Part shown: positions 12,835 to 24,280 of the stretch, piece after piece
Layout: every line of letters begins with the position of its first letter
How positions within the stretch are numbered: position 1 is the stretch's first letter
Source of the DNA: Bacteroidota bacterium
GTDB lineage: Bacteria > Bacteroidota > Bacteroidia > Bacteroidales > JACABE01
DNA: 64,000 bases
Assembly: GCA_013377005.1 (NCBI GenBank)
Contig: JACABE010000006.1
Coordinates: 1 to 64,000, forward strand
Direction: 5' to 3'
Translations under genes and position numbers: made by a program
Notes under the pieces: generated by a model
What the model was told of the DNA's origin: nothing
Databases searched by the model: none
What the model saw: only the letters and a program-made list of their open reading frames with translations

Positions 12835-14748
12835 ATGAAAATAACGAATAAAATATATATACTACTCTTTTTCAGTTATCTATTCTGTATAATCCCTTTT
12901 GGGCTTAAAAGTCAAATTAGTATTGGGGGCATTCCGCCGAGTTTTGAATACAATTTAAGCAAATCACTTGTTCAAACGTTAAATATCAATCAACCGGATA
13001 TTACTCAATTATTGTTGGAAGATGAAATGTCAGACGAAAAAGGAGAAACTTACCGAATGGGAATTCTGCTCCCTGTTAATAGAGGAATTCAAAACTCAGG
13101 AACTTGGACTAAATTGAATAATGGTGATAAAATCTGGCAATTGAGAATTATTGCAAAAGGAGCATTAGCAACAAGTTTATATTACGACAAATTTTATTTG
13201 CCTAAAGGAAGTAGATTATATGTATATAATGATGATAAGACAAGTTTAATAGGAGCTTTTACAAATAAGAATAATTATATTACAGGGTTTTTTGCAACGG
13301 AATTGGTTGCTGGCGATGCTACAACACTTGAGTATTATGAACCTTTTAGTGTAACTGATACGGTTATAATTAATATTTCCGATATTAATTATGCCTATCG
13401 AAGTGTTAATATAGCAAACAATAAATATGGTTTTGGTGCATCCGATCCTTGCGAAGTAAATATTAATTGTCCTGAAGGAAACAATTGGAAACTTCAAAAA
13501 TCAGGGGTTGCTCGAATTAACACACGTGAAGGTTCATCAACGGGTTGGTGTACAGGTTCTTTGGTTAACAATACATTACAGGATTATAAACCATACTTCC
13601 TTACTGCTAATCATTGTGGAGATAATGCTTCTTCTTCGGATTTATCACAATGGATATTTTATTTCAATTACGAGTCTTCTTCTTGCAACAATCCTTCATC
13701 TGAAGGGAATCTGGCAACACAAAGCATGGCAGGTGCCACAAAATTGGCTAATGCAGGGACTGCAGGATCTGATTTCTTATTGTTAAAACTAAATAATGAT
13801 GTTCCGGAAACATATAACCCATATTTTAATGGATGGGATAGAACGGAAGATCCAAGTATTTCTGGAGTTTCTATTCATCATCCAGCAGGAGATATTAAAA
13901 AAATAAGTACATATACAACTCCTCTAATTTCCTGCACTAATGGAAATTCAGTTTTATCCTATTGGAACGCAAAATGGGATTCCACAGTTACAGGTTATGG
14001 CGTTACAGAAGGTGGATCATCGGGTTCTCCTCTTTTTAGTTCTTCAGGAAAGCTTATAGGAACGCTTACAAGTGGTCCTTCAAGCTGTTCGGAAACGGTT
14101 GATAATAAATATGATTTCTATGGAAAGTTTAATTGGCATTGGGATAAAAATGGAGTTACTACAGCAGAAAAATTAAAAGAATGGCTTGACCCTAATAATA
14201 GCAATATAATGCAGTTAGATGGCTTAACTTATTACAAAGCAGATTTTATTGCAGATTTTAATTTTATAAAAGTAGGTGAATCGGTTAATTTTATTAATAA
14301 ATCTTTGGGAACGCCTACCCACTACTTATGGAACTTTGAAAAAGGACATCCTAGTATTTCAACCGATAAAAATCCAACTGATAGAGTATTATATTCAGAA
14401 GCAGGAATTTTTGATGTTTCTCTTCAGGCCTTTTATACAACTCCGGATTCAATTTTTATAAATAAAACAACAATAAAAACAGATTTTATAAGAGTTTGGG
14501 GTGATATTAAAATTTATACAGCTCCATTGGAAGGACGATTATGGTTAGATTTCAACAATAATATTATTAGGAATTTTAGCCTCTCTATTTATGATGTTTT
14601 GGGAAGAAATGTTTTAAGTTTTGAAAATAAGAATAATTCCCAAAACAAGTACGATTTTAATATTAGTAACTTACGAACAGGTGTTTATTTTGTAAATATT
14701 AAAACAGAGGCTACAAATCAGGATAAAAAAATTGTAATTATTAATTAG
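12835..14748 (+). CDS. secreted trypsin-fold serine protease with PKD and T9SS sorting domains
   Basis: The product has 637 residues. A signal peptide occupies about residues 1-26 (ending LKSQ). The chymotrypsin-fold domain spans about 220-450. The catalytic His is in FLTANHCG (near 260), the Asp is probably in SDFLLLKL (near 313), and the Ser is in GGSSGSPLF (near 396). The layout with GWCTGSLV and SIHHPAGDIKKIS resembles lysyl endopeptidase-like S1 proteases of Bacteroidota. A PKD-like domain follows near 470-550 (KVGESVNFINKS... YLWNFEKG). The last ~70 residues (SIYDVLGRNV...LRTGVYFVNIKT...KKIVIIN) form a type A T9SS sorting domain. The protein should be exported by T9SS and cell-surface attached or released. 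It stands alone. Confidence 0.9.
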   Translation: MKITNKIYILLFFSYLFCIIPFGLKSQISIGGIPPSFEYNLSKSLVQTLNINQPDITQLLLEDEMSDEKGETYRMGILLPVNRGIQNSGTWTKLNNGDKIWQLRIIAKGALATSLYYDKFYLPKGSRLYVYNDDKTSLIGAFTNKNNYITGFFATELVAGDATTLEYYEPFSVTDTVIINISDINYAYRSVNIANNKYGFGASDPCEVNINCPEGNNWKLQKSGVARINTREGSSTGWCTGSLVNNTLQDYKPYFLTANHCGDNASSSDLSQWIFYFNYESSSCNNPSSEGNLATQSMAGATKLANAGTAGSDFLLLKLNNDVPETYNPYFNGWDRTEDPSISGVSIHHPAGDIKKISTYTTPLISCTNGNSVLSYWNAKWDSTVTGYGVTEGGSSGSPLFSSSGKLIGTLTSGPSSCSETVDNKYDFYGKFNWHWDKNGVTTAEKLKEWLDPNNSNIMQLDGLTYYKADFIADFNFIKVGESVNFINKSLGTPTHYLWNFEKGHPSISTDKNPTDRVLYSEAGIFDVSLQAFYTTPDSIFINKTTIKTDFIRVWGDIKIYTAPLEGRLWLDFNNNIIRNFSLSIYDVLGRNVLSFENKNNSQNKYDFNISNLRTGVYFVNIKTEATNQDKKIVIIN

Positions 14749-15072
14749 AGCTCATTTTATAAAATAGATTTTTTTGGTTTTTGTGCTCGTAACCAGCAAA
14801 ATAGATATACTGTGTTATTTGAACCGAATATCCCTGATTTGAATCACACAAAACTTGCCATAAAAGAATTGATAAGCGCAAACTTCAACAGCAAACTAGA
14901 TATTTGCTCAAAATGCTGACAAACATGATTTTTCAATAATCTTACTATTATAAATGCATACAATAAAACATACTTTTGATTTTTAGTAAATCATATTTAG
15001 TTTAAACCATAAAAAATCACAAACAAAGTTTCTGTTTATTATATTTCATTAATTTTGCTGAAAATTTTTACT
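14749..15072. other. intergenic region between protease gene and dut
   Basis: A small palindrome ATTTTATAAAAT followed by a T-run (about 14755-14776) may end the protease transcript. The dut -7 box TAATTTTG is at 15050-15057, placing the start of transcription only about nine bases before the dut ATG. Nothing else is recognised. Confidence 0.45.
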
Positions 15073-15507
15073 ATGAATATTAAGATTGTCAATACATCAA
15101 AACATTCTTTGCCTGCATACGAAACAGTAGCTTCTGCTGGTATGGATTTACGAGCCGAGCTTATGCAGCCTATTACATTAAAGCCATTAGAAAGATGTTT
15201 AATTCCCACGGGATTGTATATTGAATTAGCTGTTGGATACGAAGCTCAAATTCGTCCACGCAGTGGAATGGCATTCAAACATGGAATTACAGTTTTGAAT
15301 TCCCCGGGCACAATTGATGCCGATTATCGTGGTGAAATAAAAATAATTATAGTAAACCTTTCCAACGATGAATATATTATTAATGACGGGGAACGTATTG
15401 CGCAAATGATTATTGCCCAACATGCCAAAGCGGAATGGATACAAGTAAACGAACTTGAAGAAACTACCAGAGGCGAAGGTGGATTTGGTCATACAGGAAA
15501 ACAGTAA
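15073..15507 (+). CDS. dut: dUTP diphosphatase
   Basis: This 144-residue trimeric dUTPase hydrolyses dUTP to dUMP and pyrophosphate, keeping uracil out of DNA and feeding thymidylate synthase. All five motifs are present in order: [34 protein letters not shown] and [10 protein letters not shown]. The start at 15073 (MNIKIVNTS) gives the standard N-terminus. A longer frame from a TTG at 15055 was rejected because that codon lies inside the promoter box TAATTTTG. dut leads the conserved Bacteroidota row that continues with the nucleotidyltransferase, TPR and DUF4292-like genes. Confidence 0.97.
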
Positions 15508-15520
15508 AGAAACAATAAAA

Positions 15521-15545
15521 AGAGATACTTCTTTCGTCAGCATGA
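15521..15545. repeat. degenerate intergenic repeat copy 2
   Basis: AGAGATACTTCTTTCGTCAG followed by CATGA is the reverse complement of a close relative of the repeat at 6948-6972. It sits between dut and the nucleotidyltransferase gene. Shadow translation on the minus strand gives the string FVMLTKEVSL, which I know as a frequent false-ORF by-product of this repeat. Confidence 0.55.
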
Positions 15546-15581
15546 CAAAAATGAACTTCAATTAAACAAAAAACAAAAAAA

Positions 15582-16592
15582 ATGAAAATAATTATTCCAA
15601 TGGCGGGTATGGGCAAAAGAATGCGCCCTCACACACTTACAATACCAAAGCCATTAATTCCTGTTGCAGGAAAACCTATAGTTCAACGCTTAGTTGAAGA
15701 TATTGTAAAAATAAGTCAGGGAAAAATTGACGAAATTGCTTTTATTATTGGCGATTTTGGTGTTGAAGTAGAATCAAGACTCATTGCAATTGCAGAGAAA
15801 TTAGGGGCCAAAGGGACTATTTATTATCAACATGAACCATTGGGAACTGCACATGCTATACTTTGTGCCAAAGAATCGCTTGATGGCAAAGTTATTGTAG
15901 CATTTGCCGATACTTTGTTTAAAGCTGATTTTGTATTGGACGAAAATCAGGATGGCATTATTTGGGTTCACGAAGTAGATGACCCAAGTGCCTTTGGAGT
16001 TGTGAAAACCAATGAAAACGAATTTATTACTGATTTCATCGAAAAGCCTAAAGAATTTATTTCAAACAAAGCCATTATTGGCATTTACTATTTTAAAGAT
16101 GGTGCTTATTTAAAAGATGAATTGCAATATTTGATTGATAAGAATATCATTAAAGGCAACGAGTACCAACTTACTGATGCCTTACAAAATATGATGAAGA
16201 AAGGCACACATTTTTCAGTTGGAAAGGTAAACGAATGGTTAGATTGTGGCAATAAAGATGCTACAGTTATAACTAATCGCCGTTTATTAGAAAATAGCAA
16301 TGGTGATAAATTGGTTTCTGATACAGCTAAGATTACCAATTCTATTATCAATCATCCTTGTTATATAGGTGAAAATGTTGAAATTACAAGTTCAATAATT
16401 GGTCCTTATGTTTCAATTGGAGAAAACTGTATCGTTAGTCATTCAATTATCACCGATACTATTGTTCAAACTAATTCTAAAATTAAGAATGCTAATATTG
16501 ATAATTCAATGATTGGAAGTTTTGTTGAATACAAAGGCGACATCAACGAATTAAGTATCGGCGATTTTACAACCATTAATTATAACGTTTAG
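15582..16592 (+). CDS. sugar-1-phosphate nucleotidyltransferase with left-handed helix tail
   Basis: This 336-residue protein activates a sugar phosphate with a nucleoside triphosphate. The N-terminal nucleotidyltransferase fold (about 1-235) has the signature PMAGMGKRMRPHT with PKPLIPVAGKPI, the AFADT metal site and the IEKP and NEWLDCG segments of the RmlA/GalU-like family. The C-terminal ~90 residues (HPCYIGENVEITSSIIGPYVSIGENCIVS) carry hexapeptide repeats of a left-handed beta-helix. The exact sugar and nucleotide are uncertain; dTDP-glucose or GDP-mannose type products are both plausible. It follows dut and precedes the TPR lipoprotein by 83 bases, an order conserved in Bacteroidota. 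Confidence 0.9.
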   Translation: MKIIIPMAGMGKRMRPHTLTIPKPLIPVAGKPIVQRLVEDIVKISQGKIDEIAFIIGDFGVEVESRLIAIAEKLGAKGTIYYQHEPLGTAHAILCAKESLDGKVIVAFADTLFKADFVLDENQDGIIWVHEVDDPSAFGVVKTNENEFITDFIEKPKEFISNKAIIGIYYFKDGAYLKDELQYLIDKNIIKGNEYQLTDALQNMMKKGTHFSVGKVNEWLDCGNKDATVITNRRLLENSNGDKLVSDTAKITNSIINHPCYIGENVEITSSIIGPYVSIGENCIVSHSIITDTIVQTNSKIKNANIDNSMIGSFVEYKGDINELSIGDFTTINYNV

Positions 16593-16675
16593 CAATACAA
16601 CAAATAAGCTTTAGTGTCGTTAAATACGTTATTTTACATTTTATTAAATTATTCTGAATATCTCATAGAGAACAA

Positions 16676-18418
16676 ATGAAAATACGCAACATACTCTTTA
16701 TTAGTCTAATGTTGACTATTATTTTATCAACGGCTTGTAAATCTGTAGATAAAAGTAAAAAGCTTCGCAAAGGAGAAACTATTGAAAAATCTAATGGCGA
16801 CCGTTTAGCTATTGACGGTATTTTTATTGATGCCAATAAAGAGCGCTTACAAGGCAATTATCAGAATGCATTGGATTTATTTACATTAGTGCTAAATAAA
16901 GATCCCGAAAACTCCGCTTCTCTGTACGAAATCGCTCGTATTTATCAAGTTCAGAAAAAAACTACCGAAGCGCTTCAATATGCAAAAAAAGCAGCAGAAA
17001 TTGACAAAGAAAATATTTGGTTTCAATTACTGTTGGCTGATTTATACAATAATAATCAGCAGTTTAAAGAAGCAACGGCTATTTGGACAAATATTGTAAA
17101 GAAAAACCCCGATAAAATTGAATCTTATTATGATTGGGCAAATGCATATATTTACGAAAAGAAATTGGAAGAGGCAATAAAAATATATGACCTGATAGAG
17201 AAAAAAATAGGCATCACGGAAGAAATTTCCATGCAGAAGCAAAAATTATACTTAACAATGGATAAATTTGGCAAAGCTGTGGTGGAAATTGAAAAACTTT
17301 CGGCACAATTTCCTGATGATACTCGTTTTTATGCTATGCTTGCTGAGATGCACAACAAAAAAAAGATGTACGATAAAGCATTGATTTACTATAACAAGAT
17401 ATTAGAAAAAGACCCTAATGATAAATTTATACATATTTCACTGGCTGGTTATTATCGCGAAATCGGTCAAAAAGATAAATCTTATAAGGAACTAAAAGTA
17501 GGAATAGCCAATCCTAATCTGGATATTGATACAAAAATCCAAATTTTACTTTCTTACTACACCGTTACTGAAATTTATACCGAACTAAAACCTCAAGCTT
17601 TTGAATTATCGCAGATACTTGTTAAAACACATCCTAATGACGCAAAGGCATATTCAATTTATGCAGATTTTTTGTATCGCGACAAAAAATATTTAGAAGC
17701 AAGAGATGCTTTTCGTAAAGTAAATACGATTGATAGTAGTAAATATGCAATTTGGGAAACCCTCTTGGTTGTGGAGTCAGAATTAAACGATACTGTGGCT
17801 CTTGTGAATGAAAGCAAGAGAGCCATTGAATTATTCCCGGAACAACCATTGCTATATCTCTTTTCAGGAATTGCCAATTTTCAGATTAATAAAATAGAAA
17901 TAGCTATTAAAGCATTAAAAATAGGTGTGGATTTGGTTGTCGATAATGATAAACTTAGTGTCCAGTTTTATACTTATTTAGGCGATATTTATTATAAAAA
18001 CAAAGACTATACAAATGCTTTTGATGCATTTAATAAACTACTAAAGATTGATACCGACAATGTTTACGTATTGAATAATTACGCTTACTATTTATCACTT
18101 CAGGCTGAAGATCTTGACAGAGCTGAACAAATGGGACGTAAACTGAACGATTTGGCGCCCAATAATTCTTCTTATCAAGATACCTATGCTTGGGTATTCT
18201 ATAAATTGGGCAAATACGAAGAAGCCAAAAAATGGGTATCAAAAGCTATTGACAATGGAGGTTCAAAAAACGATATTATCTTAGAGCATTATGGAGATAT
18301 TCTTTACAAACTTGGTGATAGAGAAAATGCTTTCCAGTATTGGTCAAAAGCAAAATTATTGGGTAGTGGATCCGAATTTTTACAAAAAAAGATAGTTGAT
18401 AAAAAATTGTATGAATAA
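16676..18418 (+). CDS. TPR-repeat lipoprotein
   Basis: This 580-residue protein begins with a lipoprotein signal (MKIRNILFISLMLTIILSTAC, lipobox LSTAC with Cys21), so it should be anchored in an outer-envelope membrane. From about residue 50 it is built of tetratricopeptide repeats with the usual A/G-x-x-x-Y and P spacing (for example NALDLFTLVLNKDPENSASLYEIARIY and KALIYYNKILEKDPNDKFIHISLAGYY), roughly a dozen copies. TPR arrays bind proteins rather than catalyse reactions. It overlaps the DUF4292-like gene by eight bases (ATGAATAA), which signals translational coupling. The position between the nucleotidyltransferase and the EnvC-like gene suggests a role in envelope assembly; that is inference. 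Confidence 0.9.
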   Translation: MKIRNILFISLMLTIILSTACKSVDKSKKLRKGETIEKSNGDRLAIDGIFIDANKERLQGNYQNALDLFTLVLNKDPENSASLYEIARIYQVQKKTTEALQYAKKAAEIDKENIWFQLLLADLYNNNQQFKEATAIWTNIVKKNPDKIESYYDWANAYIYEKKLEEAIKIYDLIEKKIGITEEISMQKQKLYLTMDKFGKAVVEIEKLSAQFPDDTRFYAMLAEMHNKKKMYDKALIYYNKILEKDPNDKFIHISLAGYYREIGQKDKSYKELKVGIANPNLDIDTKIQILLSYYTVTEIYTELKPQAFELSQILVKTHPNDAKAYSIYADFLYRDKKYLEARDAFRKVNTIDSSKYAIWETLLVVESELNDTVALVNESKRAIELFPEQPLLYLFSGIANFQINKIEIAIKALKIGVDLVVDNDKLSVQFYTYLGDIYYKNKDYTNAFDAFNKLLKIDTDNVYVLNNYAYYLSLQAEDLDRAEQMGRKLNDLAPNNSSYQDTYAWVFYKLGKYEEAKKWVSKAIDNGGSKNDIILEHYGDILYKLGDRENAFQYWSKAKLLGSGSEFLQKKIVDKKLYE

Positions 18419-19256
18419 ACTGAATCTTCAAAAGAATTTCTTATTGATTTTAATAATAACATTAATTGTTAGTTGCAAGCCTGAAAAACAACTTAGTGTT
18501 CAAAAAGAAATAATTCCACAAACTATAGTTAATAAAGAAATTACTACCGATACCATTTTCGATAAAATGAGCAAAAGTCAATTTCGTTTTGATTGGCTTT
18601 CGGCAAAATTTTCAGCCGAATACGAAGTTGACAACAACAATACATCTTTTAGCGGACAAATTAGAATTAGAAAAGATAGTTTGATTTGGATTTCAATATC
18701 AAAATATTCGATTGAAATTGCAAGATTATTAATTACGGAAGACAGTGTACATTTTGTTAATTGGATGGATAACAATTACTTTATAAGCGATTTTAATTAT
18801 ATTAATCGTTTTATTAATAATGCCGTTGACTTTGATATGTTGCAAGCCTTTTTTGTGGGTAATGATTTTAAATACTATGAAACAGATAAGTTTAAAACTA
18901 ATTTTGACGGAACTCAATATCATTTGAGTACGGTTAATCGGCATAAATTAAAAAAATATATTAAAACGGAAAATGACAAACTTAAAATATTGGTTCAAAG
19001 TATTTTTGTTGATCCTTTTACCTTTAAAATCAGTGAACTTTCGGTCAAAGAAGTAAAAGCAAATAATAAACTAAAAGCCAGTTACAGCAACCATGAAGCT
19101 ATTAACGGGCAACTCTTTCCTCGAAAGTTGAGTGTGTTGATATCAGCTGAAAAAGAAATAAAAATTAATATTGAATTTTCAAAAATCAATATCGACGAAC
19201 CCTTAAATTTCCCATTCAGAATTCCAGGAAGTTATGAAAGAATTATTCCAAAATAA
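18411..19256 (+). CDS. DUF4292-like lipoprotein
   Basis: The 281-residue lipoprotein has its lipobox LIVSC at Cys22. The start at 18411 overlaps the stop of the TPR gene; a TTG at 18396 was rejected because it adds residues before a standard signal. The body resembles the LolA/LolB-like beta-fold families that include DUF4292: FDWLSAKFSAEYEVDNNNTSFSGQIRIRKDSLIWISIS is characteristic of lipid or lipoprotein carrier folds, and later segments (INIEFSKINIDEPLNFPFRIP) fit the same fold. It may help move lipoproteins or lipid between membranes. This is inference from family resemblance; the gene row TPR - DUF4292 - M23/EnvC is conserved in Bacteroidota. Confidence 0.85.
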   Translation: MNKLNLQKNFLLILIITLIVSCKPEKQLSVQKEIIPQTIVNKEITTDTIFDKMSKSQFRFDWLSAKFSAEYEVDNNNTSFSGQIRIRKDSLIWISISKYSIEIARLLITEDSVHFVNWMDNNYFISDFNYINRFINNAVDFDMLQAFFVGNDFKYYETDKFKTNFDGTQYHLSTVNRHKLKKYIKTENDKLKILVQSIFVDPFTFKISELSVKEVKANNKLKASYSNHEAINGQLFPRKLSVLISAEKEIKINIEFSKINIDEPLNFPFRIPGSYERIIPK

Positions 19257-19266
19257 AAAAAAACTG

Positions 19267-19274
19267 TATCTTTG
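19267..19274 (+). promoter_or_regulatory. promoter -7 box before the EnvC-like gene
   Basis: TATCTTTG matches TAnnTTTG and lies 22 bases before the ATG at 19296. It indicates that the EnvC-like gene has its own promoter in addition to read-through from the upstream lipoprotein genes. Confidence 0.55.
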
Positions 19275-19295
19275 GACGCTCTGAAAACAATAACA

Positions 19296-20639
19296 ATGAA
19301 CAAGCAGCTCAAAAACATATATTTTTCTTCCGCCAAATTACTTATAATTGGAACAATTATAGTATGTTTTTCTTCGCAATTTTCTTATGCGCAAACTGAT
19401 AAAAACAAGCTTCAGGAAAACAAGAAAAAAATTGAACAAGAAATACAATTCACCAATAATCTTTTAAACGAAACTAAGAAAAACAAACAAACTTCGCTCA
19501 ATCAATTGGTAATTCTTAAAAATCAGATCGGAAAAAGAGAAGAACTGATCACGAATATCAATGACGAAATCAATGTAATTGTTGGCGAAATTTCTACCAC
19601 AGAAAAAAGCGTTGACCAATTAAATCAAGAACTTGCTTCATTAAAAGCTGAATATACCAAAATGATTATTGCTGCCAATCGCAATCGTAGCTCCTATAGT
19701 GTACTGATGTTTATTTTTGCTTCCGAAGATTTTAATCAGGCATATCAACGTCTAAAATACTATCAGCAATATTCCGTTTATCGAAAAAAACAAATAAAAT
19801 TAATTCAACAAACGCAAGATAAACTTACCCATAAAAAGCAGGAACTCGAAGTTCAGAAACTTACCCAAAAGCAACTACTTTCGAGTAACGAAAGCGAAAA
19901 GAAAAAACTAACTAAAGAACAGGAAATAAAAAATCTGGCTGTACAAAATCTTCAAAAAACGGAAAAAGCCTTGTTAAAAACACTTCGTAAAAAAGAAGCC
20001 GAAGCTAAAAAACTACAAAAAGATATTGAGCATATTATTGCAGAAGAAGTTAGAAAAGCAAGAGAAGCCGCTATACTTAGAGCTGAAGCGGCAAAAAGAA
20101 AATCTGCTAAAACAGATGTAAAAGAAGAAGTGAAGGTAAAAGAAATAGCAAAAACAAAAGTAGTAGAAGAAAAATTCAAGAAATCAGCAGATATTATGTC
20201 CGCAACGCCCGAAGAATTAGAACTATCTACCAGTTTTACCAACAATAAAGGACGTTTGCCATGGCCATCAGAAAAAGGCATTATTTCCAGTACCTTTGGA
20301 CCTCATTCTCATCCAGAATTGCCTGGCATTGTTATCAATAACGACGGTATTGATATCACAACCAACCGTGGTGCCAATGCCAGAGCTGTCTTCAACGGAG
20401 AAGTTGCTGCCGTTATTTCCGGACCTAATGGCAAGCAGGTCGTCATTATTAGACATGGAAACTATCTCACAGTATATTCTAATCTTGAAACTGTTTTTGT
20501 AAAAAGAGGAGAAAAAGTGTCTACAAAACAACGCATTGGCTCTGTTTACACCGATAATGAGGATAATAAAACAATATTGCAATTTCAAATTTGGAAAGGA
20601 AATGCAAAAATGAATCCTTCGGAGTGGATTGCCAGATAA
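19296..20639 (+). CDS. EnvC-like murein hydrolase activator (degenerate M23)
   Basis: The 447-residue periplasmic protein has a signal peptide (ending SYAQ), then about 250 residues of coiled coil (KKKIEQEIQFTNNLLNETKKN ... KKEAEAKKLQKD), then a C-terminal LytM/M23 fold from about 325 (GIISSTFGPHSHPELPG). The zinc ligands are missing: the usual H-x-G-x-D appears as NNDGID and the usual HxHFE-type strand as LQFQIW. That is the state of EnvC, which cuts no peptidoglycan itself but activates amidases at the division site, with the coiled coil contacting FtsEX. The start at 19296 was chosen over a TTG at 19272 that falls inside the promoter box. Confidence 0.9.
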   Translation: MNKQLKNIYFSSAKLLIIGTIIVCFSSQFSYAQTDKNKLQENKKKIEQEIQFTNNLLNETKKNKQTSLNQLVILKNQIGKREELITNINDEINVIVGEISTTEKSVDQLNQELASLKAEYTKMIIAANRNRSSYSVLMFIFASEDFNQAYQRLKYYQQYSVYRKKQIKLIQQTQDKLTHKKQELEVQKLTQKQLLSSNESEKKKLTKEQEIKNLAVQNLQKTEKALLKTLRKKEAEAKKLQKDIEHIIAEEVRKAREAAILRAEAAKRKSAKTDVKEEVKVKEIAKTKVVEEKFKKSADIMSATPEELELSTSFTNNKGRLPWPSEKGIISSTFGPHSHPELPGIVINNDGIDITTNRGANARAVFNGEVAAVISGPNGKQVVIIRHGNYLTVYSNLETVFVKRGEKVSTKQRIGSVYTDNEDNKTILQFQIWKGNAKMNPSEWIAR

Positions 20640-21043: not shown

Positions 21044-21051
21044 TAGGTTTG
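21044..21051 (+). promoter_or_regulatory. promoter -7 box of the radical SAM gene
   Basis: TAGGTTTG matches TAnnTTTG and lies 21 bases before the ATG at 21073, so the leader would be about 15 bases. Confidence 0.5.
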
Positions 21052-21072: not shown

Positions 21073-22401
21073 ATGATTAAAGCTATACAATTAACAAATC
21101 TTTGTTGCAACCTGATTAAAAGAGATTTACTTAAAAATAGGTTGTCAATGGCAAATTTGCCTTATGAGAAATTGAATAAGCTTTTATTTCAATTGTATTA
21201 TAGCGGCTTCCTTAATTACAATGAATTATCCAATGATAAAAACATTAAAAAGTTAGAAGACCTAGGTTTTCTGAAAACTATTGAAATTGATGATTCTCAA
21301 TTAGAAGCTAAAGCTGAAGAATTAAAAAAGCAATACCAGCATTACCCAATTGCCCATGTTGAAGCTATCAATCTCGAACTCACTTACGAGTGTAATTCAA
21401 ATTGCCCTCACTGCTTATTAAAATCCGTTAGAAAATCGTATCATGGCAAAGAACTCACGTATGAAAAAATTAAGCAAACAATAGCAGATGCTTATTTTGC
21501 TGGGTTACTACAGAATGGCGTAAATTTTACTGGTGGCGAAGCCTTATTAGCTAAAATAGATATTTTCGATTTAATCCGTTATGCATCCAGTTATGGAATT
21601 CCAACGAGGTTGTTTACCAACTCTTTTTGGGGAAGTAAAGTGTTGTTTAAGGCAGGAAACCAAAGGTTTACTTCTGCCTTGGCTTTAATTAAAGTGTTGA
21701 AAAAAAGCGGTTTAAGTCATCTTGCATTAAGTTTTGATTCTCGTATTGATAAAGATAAATCTGGCATTAAACAACTTACATCTGTTATTCATGCTTGTGA
21801 AACCATTGGACTAAATTATGAATTAATGTCGAGCGAGGAAGTTAAAACTCAATTAGACTCATTTATTAAATACTTGAAAACTACATTAGAGCTTAAAGAA
21901 TTAACATTTATGACACCCATCACTATGGATTTGGTAGATATGGGTGGAGCCAATGATAATACGTCCAAACCACTCAATCATCTTTTTATTAAAGACTTAA
22001 TTTCTCATAGCTTGTGTAAAAGTAAAGGTTTTTATCAGCCAAGCATGCTAACCATTGCCCCTGATGGTAGTCTTCGATCTTGTATGTATGGGTTGGGAAT
22101 GTGTAATCTCGGGAATATTCATGTACAAAGTTTGTATAAAATTGTCAATGATTTTAGTGATGAAGTAACCCAAGCTTTTGCCGATAAATCAGCATTCGAA
22201 TTAGCAGATTTACTATTTGAACCTTATAAAAACATTTATAAACCATTCTCACATCCTTGTTCTGCTTGTGTTTTACTTGCCCGACTCATGCAGGAATATT
22301 ATCAACTTGTAAAAACACAAACTGTTTCTGAAAAAGATATTTTGGCAATAAATTTACATGTTGCTAAAGATCTTAATCTCTTAAAAGTTGATATAAGCTG
22401 A
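21073..22401 (+). CDS. orphan radical SAM protein with extra C-terminal Cys clusters
   Basis: The product has 442 residues. An N-terminal region of ~95 residues without a clear match (it looks helical, possibly winged-helix-like) precedes the radical SAM core. The core shows the iron-sulfur motif CX3CX2C as ECNSNCPHC (near residue 109), the TGGEALL strand that contacts SAM, and ALSFDSR further on. Near the C-terminus SCMYGLGMC (CX6C) and HPCSAC (CX2C) could hold an auxiliary cluster, as in SPASM or twitch domains of peptide-modifying enzymes. It is a single-gene unit between the EnvC-like gene and ispG, with no recognisable precursor peptide, transporter or partner. The substrate is unknown; peptide or protein modification is inference. 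Confidence 0.88.
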   Translation: MIKAIQLTNLCCNLIKRDLLKNRLSMANLPYEKLNKLLFQLYYSGFLNYNELSNDKNIKKLEDLGFLKTIEIDDSQLEAKAEELKKQYQHYPIAHVEAINLELTYECNSNCPHCLLKSVRKSYHGKELTYEKIKQTIADAYFAGLLQNGVNFTGGEALLAKIDIFDLIRYASSYGIPTRLFTNSFWGSKVLFKAGNQRFTSALALIKVLKKSGLSHLALSFDSRIDKDKSGIKQLTSVIHACETIGLNYELMSSEEVKTQLDSFIKYLKTTLELKELTFMTPITMDLVDMGGANDNTSKPLNHLFIKDLISHSLCKSKGFYQPSMLTIAPDGSLRSCMYGLGMCNLGNIHVQSLYKIVNDFSDEVTQAFADKSAFELADLLFEPYKNIYKPFSHPCSACVLLARLMQEYYQLVKTQTVSEKDILAINLHVAKDLNLLKVDIS

Positions 22402-22477: not shown

Positions 22478-24280
22478 ATGCTTCAATTCATTAATCATCC
22501 ATACACTTACCACCGTTTCAGAACCAGAGAAGTGAAAATCGGGAACACCGCAATGGGTGGCAACAATCCTGTCCGCATACAATCTATGACAAACACTGAT
22601 ACAATGGATACTATGACTACATTTTATCAATGTGTTAGGATGATTGAAGCAGGTTGTGAATATGTTCGCATCACCGCTCCCGGTGTAAAAGAAGCTGAGA
22701 ATCTGGCTACAATTAAAAATGAATTGCATAAAAGAGGATATACCACACCTCTGATAGCCGATATTCATTTTAATCCTAAAGCAGCAGAAGTTGCTGCCAG
22801 TATTGTCGAAAAAGTTAGGATTAACCCAGGTAATTATGTTGATAGGAATGTCGGAAACTATAGTTTTACAGCACAAGAATACAAAGAAGAATTGCAGCGT
22901 ATTGCAGAACGACTTTTCCCATTGATTGAAATTTGCAAGAAAAACCAAACGACTATTCGGATAGGCACCAATCATGGATCACTTTCTGATAGAATTCTAA
23001 ATCGTTATGGCGATACACCCAATGGAATGGTGGAATCGGCAATGGAATTTATTCGTATTTTTGAAAGTTTCGATTTTAACAACTTGGTTTTATCAATGAA
23101 ATCGAGCAATATTAAAGTAATGGTTGCCTCCACACGCCTTTTGGTTGCCAATATGAAAGCTGAAGGTATGAGTTATCCAATTCATTTGGGTGTTACTGAA
23201 GCTGGAGACGGAGAAGATGGTCGTATAAAGTCGGCTGGAGGTATTGGTGCTTTGTTGGAAGATGGGATAGGTGATACCATTCGGGTTTCGCTTACCGAAG
23301 ATCCTGAATTTGAAATGCCCGTAGCACGAAAAATAGTTCATTTCTACAACTACTCGTCTCGTTGTGAGAATACAGAACCTGAAAGTATTGAATTCCCTGT
23401 AAATCCTTATCAATATACAAGAAGAATGACTGTTGCTGTTGATAAAATTGGGAGTTCGTATCCGGTTGTAATAATAGGAAATGATAAGGAAGGAAAAGCA
23501 GATTATTCATTTTCTGAAAATCAAATTGTTAATAATCAATCTCGACAAAACTTTCATTTGTTTACTGATTTTAGCCAATTTACTGTACATGAAAAGATTG
23601 AAATCCAAACTCAATTTATTCAAATTTCTACAATAGATGCTATTGATTTCCGCAATCAAAATCTAATAAATAGCATTCGAAATTATAAAAATTTAGTGTT
23701 TATAACTGCGTTTAAAGATGATGTAGGTATTAAAAACGAAAGATTTTTCTTTGCCCAATTGATGAATGCAGGTATTCAAACTCCAGTAATAGTTCAAAAA
23801 ACTTATCAGATTGCTGATAAGGAGGCTTTACAAATGAAAGCTTCTGCCGATTTTGGCGCTTTGTTGGTGGATGGCTTTTGCGATGGTATTTGGCTTAAAA
23901 ATGCTGATAGCAGCGATGATTTTTTGACAGTTAGCATGTTTAATATATTACAGGCAAGCGGTGTTCGTATAACTAAAACAGAATTTATTGCTTGTCCATC
24001 CTGTGGAAGAACGCAATTCAGGATACAGGATGCATTGAAGGCCATTAAAGAAAAGACTTCTCATTTGAAAGGGCTTAAAATCGCAGTTATGGGGTGTATT
24101 GTGAATGGACCCGGCGAAATGGCCGATGCCCACTATGGTTATGTAGGTGCCGGAAATGGAAGAATTACTCTCTACAAAGGCAAAGTTGTAGTAGAAAAAA
24201 ATATTCCAGAAAACGAAGCCCTTGACAAACTTATAAATTTGATTAAAATAAACGGGGATTGGAAAGAAATATCTCAGTAA
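22478..24280 (+). CDS. ispG: 4-hydroxy-3-methylbut-2-enyl-diphosphate synthase, long form
   Basis: This 600-residue enzyme of the MEP isoprenoid pathway converts methylerythritol cyclodiphosphate to HMBPP using a [4Fe-4S] cluster. The N-terminal TIM-barrel has PVRIQSMTNTDT and KVRINPGN. The C-terminal domain carries the cluster ligands in CPSCGRTQF (near 506-509) and CIVNGPGE (near 541). E. coli IspG has about 370 residues; this one has an additional central domain (about residues 290-490), the arrangement known from plants, Chlamydia and Bacteroidota. dxr at 58.4 kb serves the same pathway. It is separated from the radical SAM gene by 76 bases. Confidence 0.96.
   Translation: MLQFINHPYTYHRFRTREVKIGNTAMGGNNPVRIQSMTNTDTMDTMTTFYQCVRMIEAGCEYVRITAPGVKEAENLATIKNELHKRGYTTPLIADIHFNPKAAEVAASIVEKVRINPGNYVDRNVGNYSFTAQEYKEELQRIAERLFPLIEICKKNQTTIRIGTNHGSLSDRILNRYGDTPNGMVESAMEFIRIFESFDFNNLVLSMKSSNIKVMVASTRLLVANMKAEGMSYPIHLGVTEAGDGEDGRIKSAGGIGALLEDGIGDTIRVSLTEDPEFEMPVARKIVHFYNYSSRCENTEPESIEFPVNPYQYTRRMTVAVDKIGSSYPVVIIGNDKEGKADYSFSENQIVNNQSRQNFHLFTDFSQFTVHEKIEIQTQFIQISTIDAIDFRNQNLINSIRNYKNLVFITAFKDDVGIKNERFFFAQLMNAGIQTPVIVQKTYQIADKEALQMKASADFGALLVDGFCDGIWLKNADSSDDFLTVSMFNILQASGVRITKTEFIACPSCGRTQFRIQDALKAIKEKTSHLKGLKIAVMGCIVNGPGEMADAHYGYVGAGNGRITLYKGKVVVEKNIPENEALDKLINLIKINGDWKEISQ

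Follow-up and report, generated by a model that had tools for sequence, protein, structure and literature searches.

Analysis of the window, a stretch of 64,000 nucleotides from a Bacteroidota bacterium of the order Bacteroidales (GCA_013377005.1, contig JACABE010000006.1, positions 1 to 64,000), showed that the gene at 21073..22401 on the forward strand encodes a genuine radical SAM enzyme of 442 amino acids, whose CX3CX2C motif lies in a (beta/alpha)6 barrel. The enzyme was best explained as a housekeeping twitch enzyme acting on a protein or peptide whose gene lies elsewhere; this reading was given a probability of about 0.42. Its predicted scaffold resembles that of the peptide-modifying enzyme EpeE and appears to lack the EpeE thiol donor, and its gene lies upstream of ispG.

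The gene was called from its ATG start, the open reading frame, Pfam and the ortholog set, and the protein was divided into an N-terminal domain (residues 1-96, 21073..21360), a radical SAM barrel (residues 97-285, 21361..21927) and a twitch-like domain (residues 313-410, 22009..22302), all on the forward strand. The barrel was delimited by Pfam, VIA-align and an AlphaFold model, and PF04055 Radical_SAM scored 38.8 bits against a cut-off of 29.5. The core motif reported in the preliminary description was confirmed within this match as the CX3CX2C [4Fe-4S]/SAM motif of C107, C111 and C114 (21391..21414, forward strand), which is conserved in the orthologs. Positions invariant across the five orthologs number 84 of 189 in the barrel, 42 of 98 in the twitch-like domain and 23 of 96 in the N-terminal domain.

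Orthologs were found in all five sampled genomes of the window organism's family, which cover two genera, with one copy each and 54-74% identity to the window protein; two of these genomes (G107 and G200) had short contigs, and one ortholog (L004) came from a public Bacteroidales MAG. No match was obtained in 196 non-family genomes of the order sample at E <= 1e-10 (198 including two family members), in 394 other genomes of the phylum sample at E <= 1e-12 (of 395) or in 394 other genomes of the class sample at E <= 1e-10 (of 395), and the misses are not additive, as thresholds differ and draws overlap. Another order gave no match at all in 22 genomes, so that this result carries little weight alone. 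A looser order search (E <= 1e-4) gave matches in 39 of 393 genomes, comprising four family members, one distant homolog (L017, genome G690) and 34 genomes with weaker matches, mostly limited to the barrel, one of which extends to residue 362. L017, a protein of 437 amino acids, was aligned to residues 82-432 (E 4.2e-23, 29% identity) and was otherwise the only match from sampled genomes outside the family to align beyond the barrel. Its gene was present in 1 of 16 genomes of G690's family (G690 only), and an order search with L017 itself returned 7 of 393 genomes: four family members, G690 and two with SPASM-type proteins that matched in the barrel. Among the genomes sampled, the gene appears to be specific to one family of uncultured Bacteroidales. 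A phage origin was rejected, with no match in the phage collection and only barrel-level matches in two viral contigs, as were plasmid homologs, with two records covering residues 84-222 at most and none for L017.

The pace of evolution was compared with that of ispG. The dN between genomes was 0.17-0.46 for the radical SAM gene and 0.23-0.30 for ispG, and dS exceeded 1.2 where it could be computed (6 of 10 radical SAM pairs and 8 of 10 ispG pairs, the remaining pairs giving no value). These values place the radical SAM gene under purifying selection, with a rate of evolution similar to, or somewhat above, that of ispG.

Cys12, Cys107, Cys111, Cys114, Cys242, Cys315, Cys337 and Cys396 were invariant in the five orthologs. 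The cysteines of the twitch-like domain are spaced as C315-x16-G332-x4-C337 ... C396-x2-C399, which exceeds by one residue the motif that we take to be typical of twitch and SPASM domains, C-x(9-15)-G-x4-C followed by more cysteines; Pfam SPASM reached 18.3 bits in the window protein, under its cut-off of 21.5. The preliminary description had overlooked C315, with its C-x16-G-x4-C spacing to C337, as well as the invariant C12 and C242. It had proposed a CX6C motif (C337-C344), which was rejected as a cluster motif because position 344 is not conserved (C, S, N, N and D across the five orthologs), while its CX2C (C396-C399) held for C396 and less fully for C399, which is present in four of the five. 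SPASM domains with two auxiliary clusters have seven or eight auxiliary cysteines, according to PMC10352776. A two-cluster SPASM domain was rejected for the window protein, where C315, C337, C344, C396 and C399 are the only cysteines after the barrel, with the variable C344 and the incompletely kept C399 among them. The pattern of C315, C337 and C396, with or without C399, points to a single-cluster twitch domain with three or four cysteine ligands. PMC6231123 describes auxiliary clusters that range from full ligation in BtrN to sites left open in MoaA and SkfB, and three or four ligands would fall within that range. The distant homolog L017 keeps the core cysteines, Cys337, Cys396 and His394, and has a cysteine near the Cys315 column (by eye); Cys12 and Cys399 were not kept.

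Two AlphaFold models were compared. The first (A1) had a mean pLDDT of 59 and was too weak for the barrel, and Foldseek gave no match at E below 0.001 with it. The second (A4) was built from an alignment of 15 sequences, of which six were family members or L017 and nine were other radical SAM proteins, and had a mean pLDDT of 65; its 10-residue blocks reached 62-95 in the barrel (one at 49), 31-74 in the twitch region and 30-64 in the N-terminal region. Compared with A1, the barrel was improved and confidence in the N-terminus was lowered, and with the low to moderate values in the twitch region the model does not fix how the auxiliary site is arranged.

In a Foldseek search with A4, EpeE chains filled the first eight places, with a best E of 2.9e-8 and TM-scores (by target length) of 0.61-0.66. 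VIA-align also ranked EpeE first (Z 18.2, rmsd 4.8, 296 residues, model range 88-417, 15-16% identity), followed by PqqE (Z 17.8), SkfB (16.9), SuiB (16.8), MoaA (16.5), viperin (16.1), BtrN (15.6) and BlsE (15.5). Since MoaA, viperin, BtrN and BlsE score near the peptide enzymes, the fold gives no verdict on the substrate. The best PDB match with a single sequence was YydG (E 2.4e-4), and with profile A4 the PDB sequences of SkfB (1.1e-24) and EpeE (7.8e-22) ranked first, although this profile includes nine radical SAM proteins that do not belong to the family, as well as L017, and is thereby biased towards radical SAM proteins in general. The nearest solved relatives by sequence (YydG), predicted fold (EpeE) and profile (SkfB and EpeE) are all peptide modifiers, which favours a substrate of that kind.

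EpeE/YydG (TIGR04078; PDB 8ai1-8ai6) and the window protein both have a barrel, one C-terminal auxiliary cluster (predicted for the window protein) and a terminal CxxC, and the EpeE profile match extends to the final CxxC. The window protein differs in an extra N-terminal domain of about 95 residues and in that no adjacent precursor gene was found. In the profile alignment to PDB sequences, a cysteine of EpeE is aligned on Cys337, and the next residue differs between the C223A and D210A entries; this residue is thus Cys223, which falls on Met338 (22084..22086, forward strand). Met338 was present in all five orthologs and is replaced by proline in L017, while EpeE Asp210 falls, by counting, on Met325, which is methionine in four of the five orthologs and threonine in the fifth. 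Cys223 has a catalytic role as hydrogen donor in EpeE, as given in PMC8326336, and a methionine in its place makes epimerisation of the EpeE type unlikely. The TIGR04078 score of 39.6 bits against a cut-off of 300 likewise speaks against an EpeE-type epimerase, and the window protein would best be described as an EpeE-like scaffold without the EpeE thiol donor, as judged from the predicted fold and the alignment.

The sactisynthase SkfB (PDB 6efn) shares the build of an N-terminal domain, a barrel and a one-cluster twitch domain, as described in PMC6231123. According to the same paper SkfB has a solved RRE domain, whereas the N-terminal domain of the window protein is only putative and no precursor was found, and the SkfB profile match ends ahead of the C-terminal cysteine pair. 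The small-molecule twitch enzymes MoaA and BtrN also have a single auxiliary cluster (PMC6231123), like the one predicted here, and their fold scores were those given above (Z 16.5 and 15.6).

Comparison with curated families did not place the protein in a radical SAM subfamily among the families listed, judging by its sequence. Among the best 25 of 50 NCBIfam matches at E <= 1, no cut-off was reached, so the proposed HMM check returned the general Radical_SAM family over its cut-off and left SPASM and the NCBIfam subfamilies under theirs. The top match by E-value among those listed was prokaryotic viperin (NF038283, E 1.4e-10, residues 98-190), which scored 40.8 bits where the cut-off is 180, followed by the YydG epimerase. 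PADLOC pVip was also the best PADLOC match by E-value (7.7e-12). Both viperin matches are, however, limited to the barrel, and viperin is not known to have an auxiliary-cluster domain such as the one predicted for the window protein. Viperin, MoaA, NirJ/AhbD, PqqE, mycofactocin and Tes families were rejected, with best stretches in the barrel and scores far under the cut-offs (25 of 50 families listed); the MoaA models matched in the barrel only. The hopanoid enzyme HpnH, which we take to be a radical SAM protein near isoprenoid genes with a C-terminal Pfam domain of its own, was also rejected, that domain being absent from the three Pfam families of the window protein.

The N-terminal region had been described as about 95 residues without an assignment, and the first 96 residues indeed gave no Pfam match up to E 10. 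PqqD/RRE was not matched by Pfam in any of six N-termini. Sub-threshold matches to UAE_UbL (E 0.0005) and the HA2_N winged helix (0.095), both in L006, Stk19 (0.03, L003) and Phage_tail_X (0.2, L017) were not shared between proteins and were taken as chance. In model A1 the N-terminus (blocks with pLDDT 53-82) was predicted as beta-alpha-alpha-alpha-alpha-beta, and residues 1-73 aligned with residues 113-179 of PriA (Z 6.7, rmsd 2.3, 63 residues), a Z score in the range that the tool assigns to a common arrangement; this part of PriA is, we assume, a winged helix. In model A4 the first strand became a helix with pLDDT of about 30. The suggested structural check for an RRE therefore yielded a weak winged-helix resemblance in A1 (mean pLDDT 59) whose first strand was not reproduced in A4, and the domain is possibly winged-helix-like. 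The similarity of the L017 N-terminal domain to that of the window protein was slight.

The claim that the gene has its own promoter was borne out by TAnnTTTG (21044..21051, forward strand), which we take to be the Bacteroidetes-type -7 promoter element; it was kept at -29/-30 in all four genomes with upstream DNA, in a region nearly letter-identical in three of the four. By mononucleotide shuffling, the chance that one such site falls between -40 and -12 in the window was 0.015. The extended promoter pattern with up to 3 mismatches occurred 7-10 times per genome in four genomes, with none in the reversed control, and it also precedes glutamine synthetase-like, HPRT-like, FolB-like and PurL-like genes, as identified from our own reading of their translations. 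A special regulon was rejected on these counts, and the presence of the pattern ahead of housekeeping-looking genes indicates a general promoter type.

The gene is followed on the same strand by a long form of ispG (GcpE; 22478..24280; PF04551, E 7.2e-123), at a gap of 76 nt in the window organism (G000), 84 nt in L004, 27 nt in G198 and 48 nt in G107. The preliminary description had regarded the gene as an orphan without a companion enzyme. The orphan claim holds insofar as no adjacent precursor or transporter was found, and it fails for the companion, since the check on neighbouring genes that it had suggested found ispG as the co-directional 3' neighbour in four of the five family genomes and in both genera. 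In the exception, G200, ispG lies on another contig and what looks by eye like a terminator hairpin follows the radical SAM gene. Six genes next to the pair (window 12835-20639) share its strand in G000, whereas in L004 their order is mirrored and they lie on the other strand; G198 has just the first of the six, adjoining the pair and divergent as in L004. The genes 3' of ispG differ between G000, L004 and G198. Together, the six-gene inversion and the differing downstream genes indicate that the radical SAM-ispG pair outlived rearrangement. Among the papers searched, none was found that joins radical SAM, ispG and gene neighborhood.

No TAnnTTTG was found within 200 nt before ispG in the four linked genomes. 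It was also absent before the unlinked ispG of G200. Of 23 ispG loci outside the family, 12 lacked it and 11 had it, at varied distances, so that its absence says little and the contrast is modest. None of 24 ispG loci (the 23 outside the family and G200) had an upstream radical SAM gene, on a scan for a match to profile A2 or for CX3CX2C in open reading frames of at least 90 aa within about 1.5 kb, the set of loci having no positive control. Two other neighbours were noted. In G200 the radical SAM gene is preceded, at a distance of 67 nt, by the gene of a five-fold beta-flower protein (PF21785; L009 1022-1435), which was not seen beside it in the other loci read. In G690 the L017 gene shares its 3' end with an overlapping dual-specificity phosphatase gene (L033 10382-10843, ATG by eye), which suggests translational coupling.

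The statement that no precursor peptide is encoded nearby agreed with the small-ORF search (ATG starts, 15-110 aa, within 3 kb), where 36 ORFs at six loci included no shared precursor-like ORF, the contigs of G107 and G200 being short. Two marginal pairs between loci (E 0.006 and 0.013) were not credited.

On the reading of a housekeeping protein- or peptide-modifying enzyme, the protein would consist of three modules: an N-terminal domain for substrate binding, a barrel that cleaves SAM and a twitch domain carrying a single auxiliary iron-sulfur cluster. Its gene would have housekeeping expression, usually in one transcript with ispG. The N-terminal domain would hold a cellular protein or peptide whose gene lies elsewhere, the cluster at C107/C111/C114 would cleave SAM, and the resulting 5'-deoxyadenosyl radical would abstract hydrogen from one residue of that substrate. 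Since Met338 replaces the donor cysteine, the substrate radical would not be quenched by a thiol as in EpeE, but would be oxidised via the auxiliary cluster, giving a cross-link, a thioether or a desaturation; it is the missing thiol donor that argues for an oxidative outcome. The suggestion of the preliminary description that the protein modifies a protein or peptide encoded elsewhere is thus backed by the peptide-modifying relatives and by the lack of any NCBIfam cut-off reached among the 25 families listed, and is weakened by the link to the metabolic gene ispG, a hint of small-molecule chemistry. A cellular task is likelier than a secreted RiPP, given the family-wide presence, general promoter, selection and lack of a local peptide. 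A RiPP maturase whose small peptide has its gene at another locus of the genome would suit the RiPP enzymes EpeE and SkfB as closest solved relatives and a modular build like that of SkfB (PMC6231123), yet it is rather unlikely: the six loci share no small ORF within 3 kb, the transcript leaves no room for one between a promoter 29-30 nt before the start and an ispG 27-84 nt downstream, and presence in five of five family genomes behind a general promoter is unlike an expected RiPP cluster.

The main rival is an enzyme acting on an isoprenoid small molecule or lipid (of the MEP pathway, or a quinone or polyprenol tail), which would account for the pairing with ispG and seems about half as probable as the protein or peptide reading. 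The same-strand adjacency in four of five genomes and both genera, its survival of rearrangement, the missing TAnnTTTG before the linked ispG genes and a match to the tetraether lipid synthase Tes speak for it. That match is confined to the barrel, however; TAnnTTTG is missing at unlinked ispG loci as well, the G200 gene stands apart from ispG with its hairpin, none of the 23 outside ispG loci has an upstream radical SAM gene, and L017 overlaps a phosphatase gene instead. An EpeE-like epimerase with another hydrogen donor, such as Cys242, is improbable. EpeE is the best structural match and Cys242 is invariant in the five orthologs, but the positions of EpeE Cys223 and Asp210 are taken by Met338 (five of five) and Met325 (four of five, threonine in the fifth), model A4 places Cys242 close to where a helix of the barrel ends, ahead of a strand, and L017 is gapped there. 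To return to the protein or peptide reading, its boldest form, a novel oxidative modification of a housekeeping protein, which could be IspG or another protein of isoprenoid metabolism, with both genes in one transcription unit, would be a long shot. To our knowledge, few radical SAM enzymes modify ordinary cellular proteins. If the protein or peptide reading is true, a family-wide enzyme with a general promoter and an EpeE-like auxiliary-cluster domain without the catalytic thiol would show a twitch scaffold changing its reaction, and the ispG link offers a concrete place to seek the role of the enzyme.

Other radical SAM genes were observed in the course of the searches. The sole full-length match in the window organism's own genome was the protein itself, and a second, weak match (residues 43-330) at G000:C3:65955-67001 has an internal TAA; a 371-residue open frame with a SPASM match lies there. 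A large viral contig from IMG/VR (300,878 bases) carries three consecutive radical SAM-like ORFs (L012 3172-5819; L013 at the same coordinates). In G594, an ORF of 117-128 aa with a six-glycine run and no Pfam or NCBIfam match lies directly before a SPASM maturase (L108 1004-1390 and 1480-2508) whose best model is the nif11-class TIGR04103 (234 bits against a cut-off of 725), a possible RiPP pair. A similar SPASM maturase follows an ORF of up to 191 aa without assignment in G080 (L107 892-1467 and 1534-2565).
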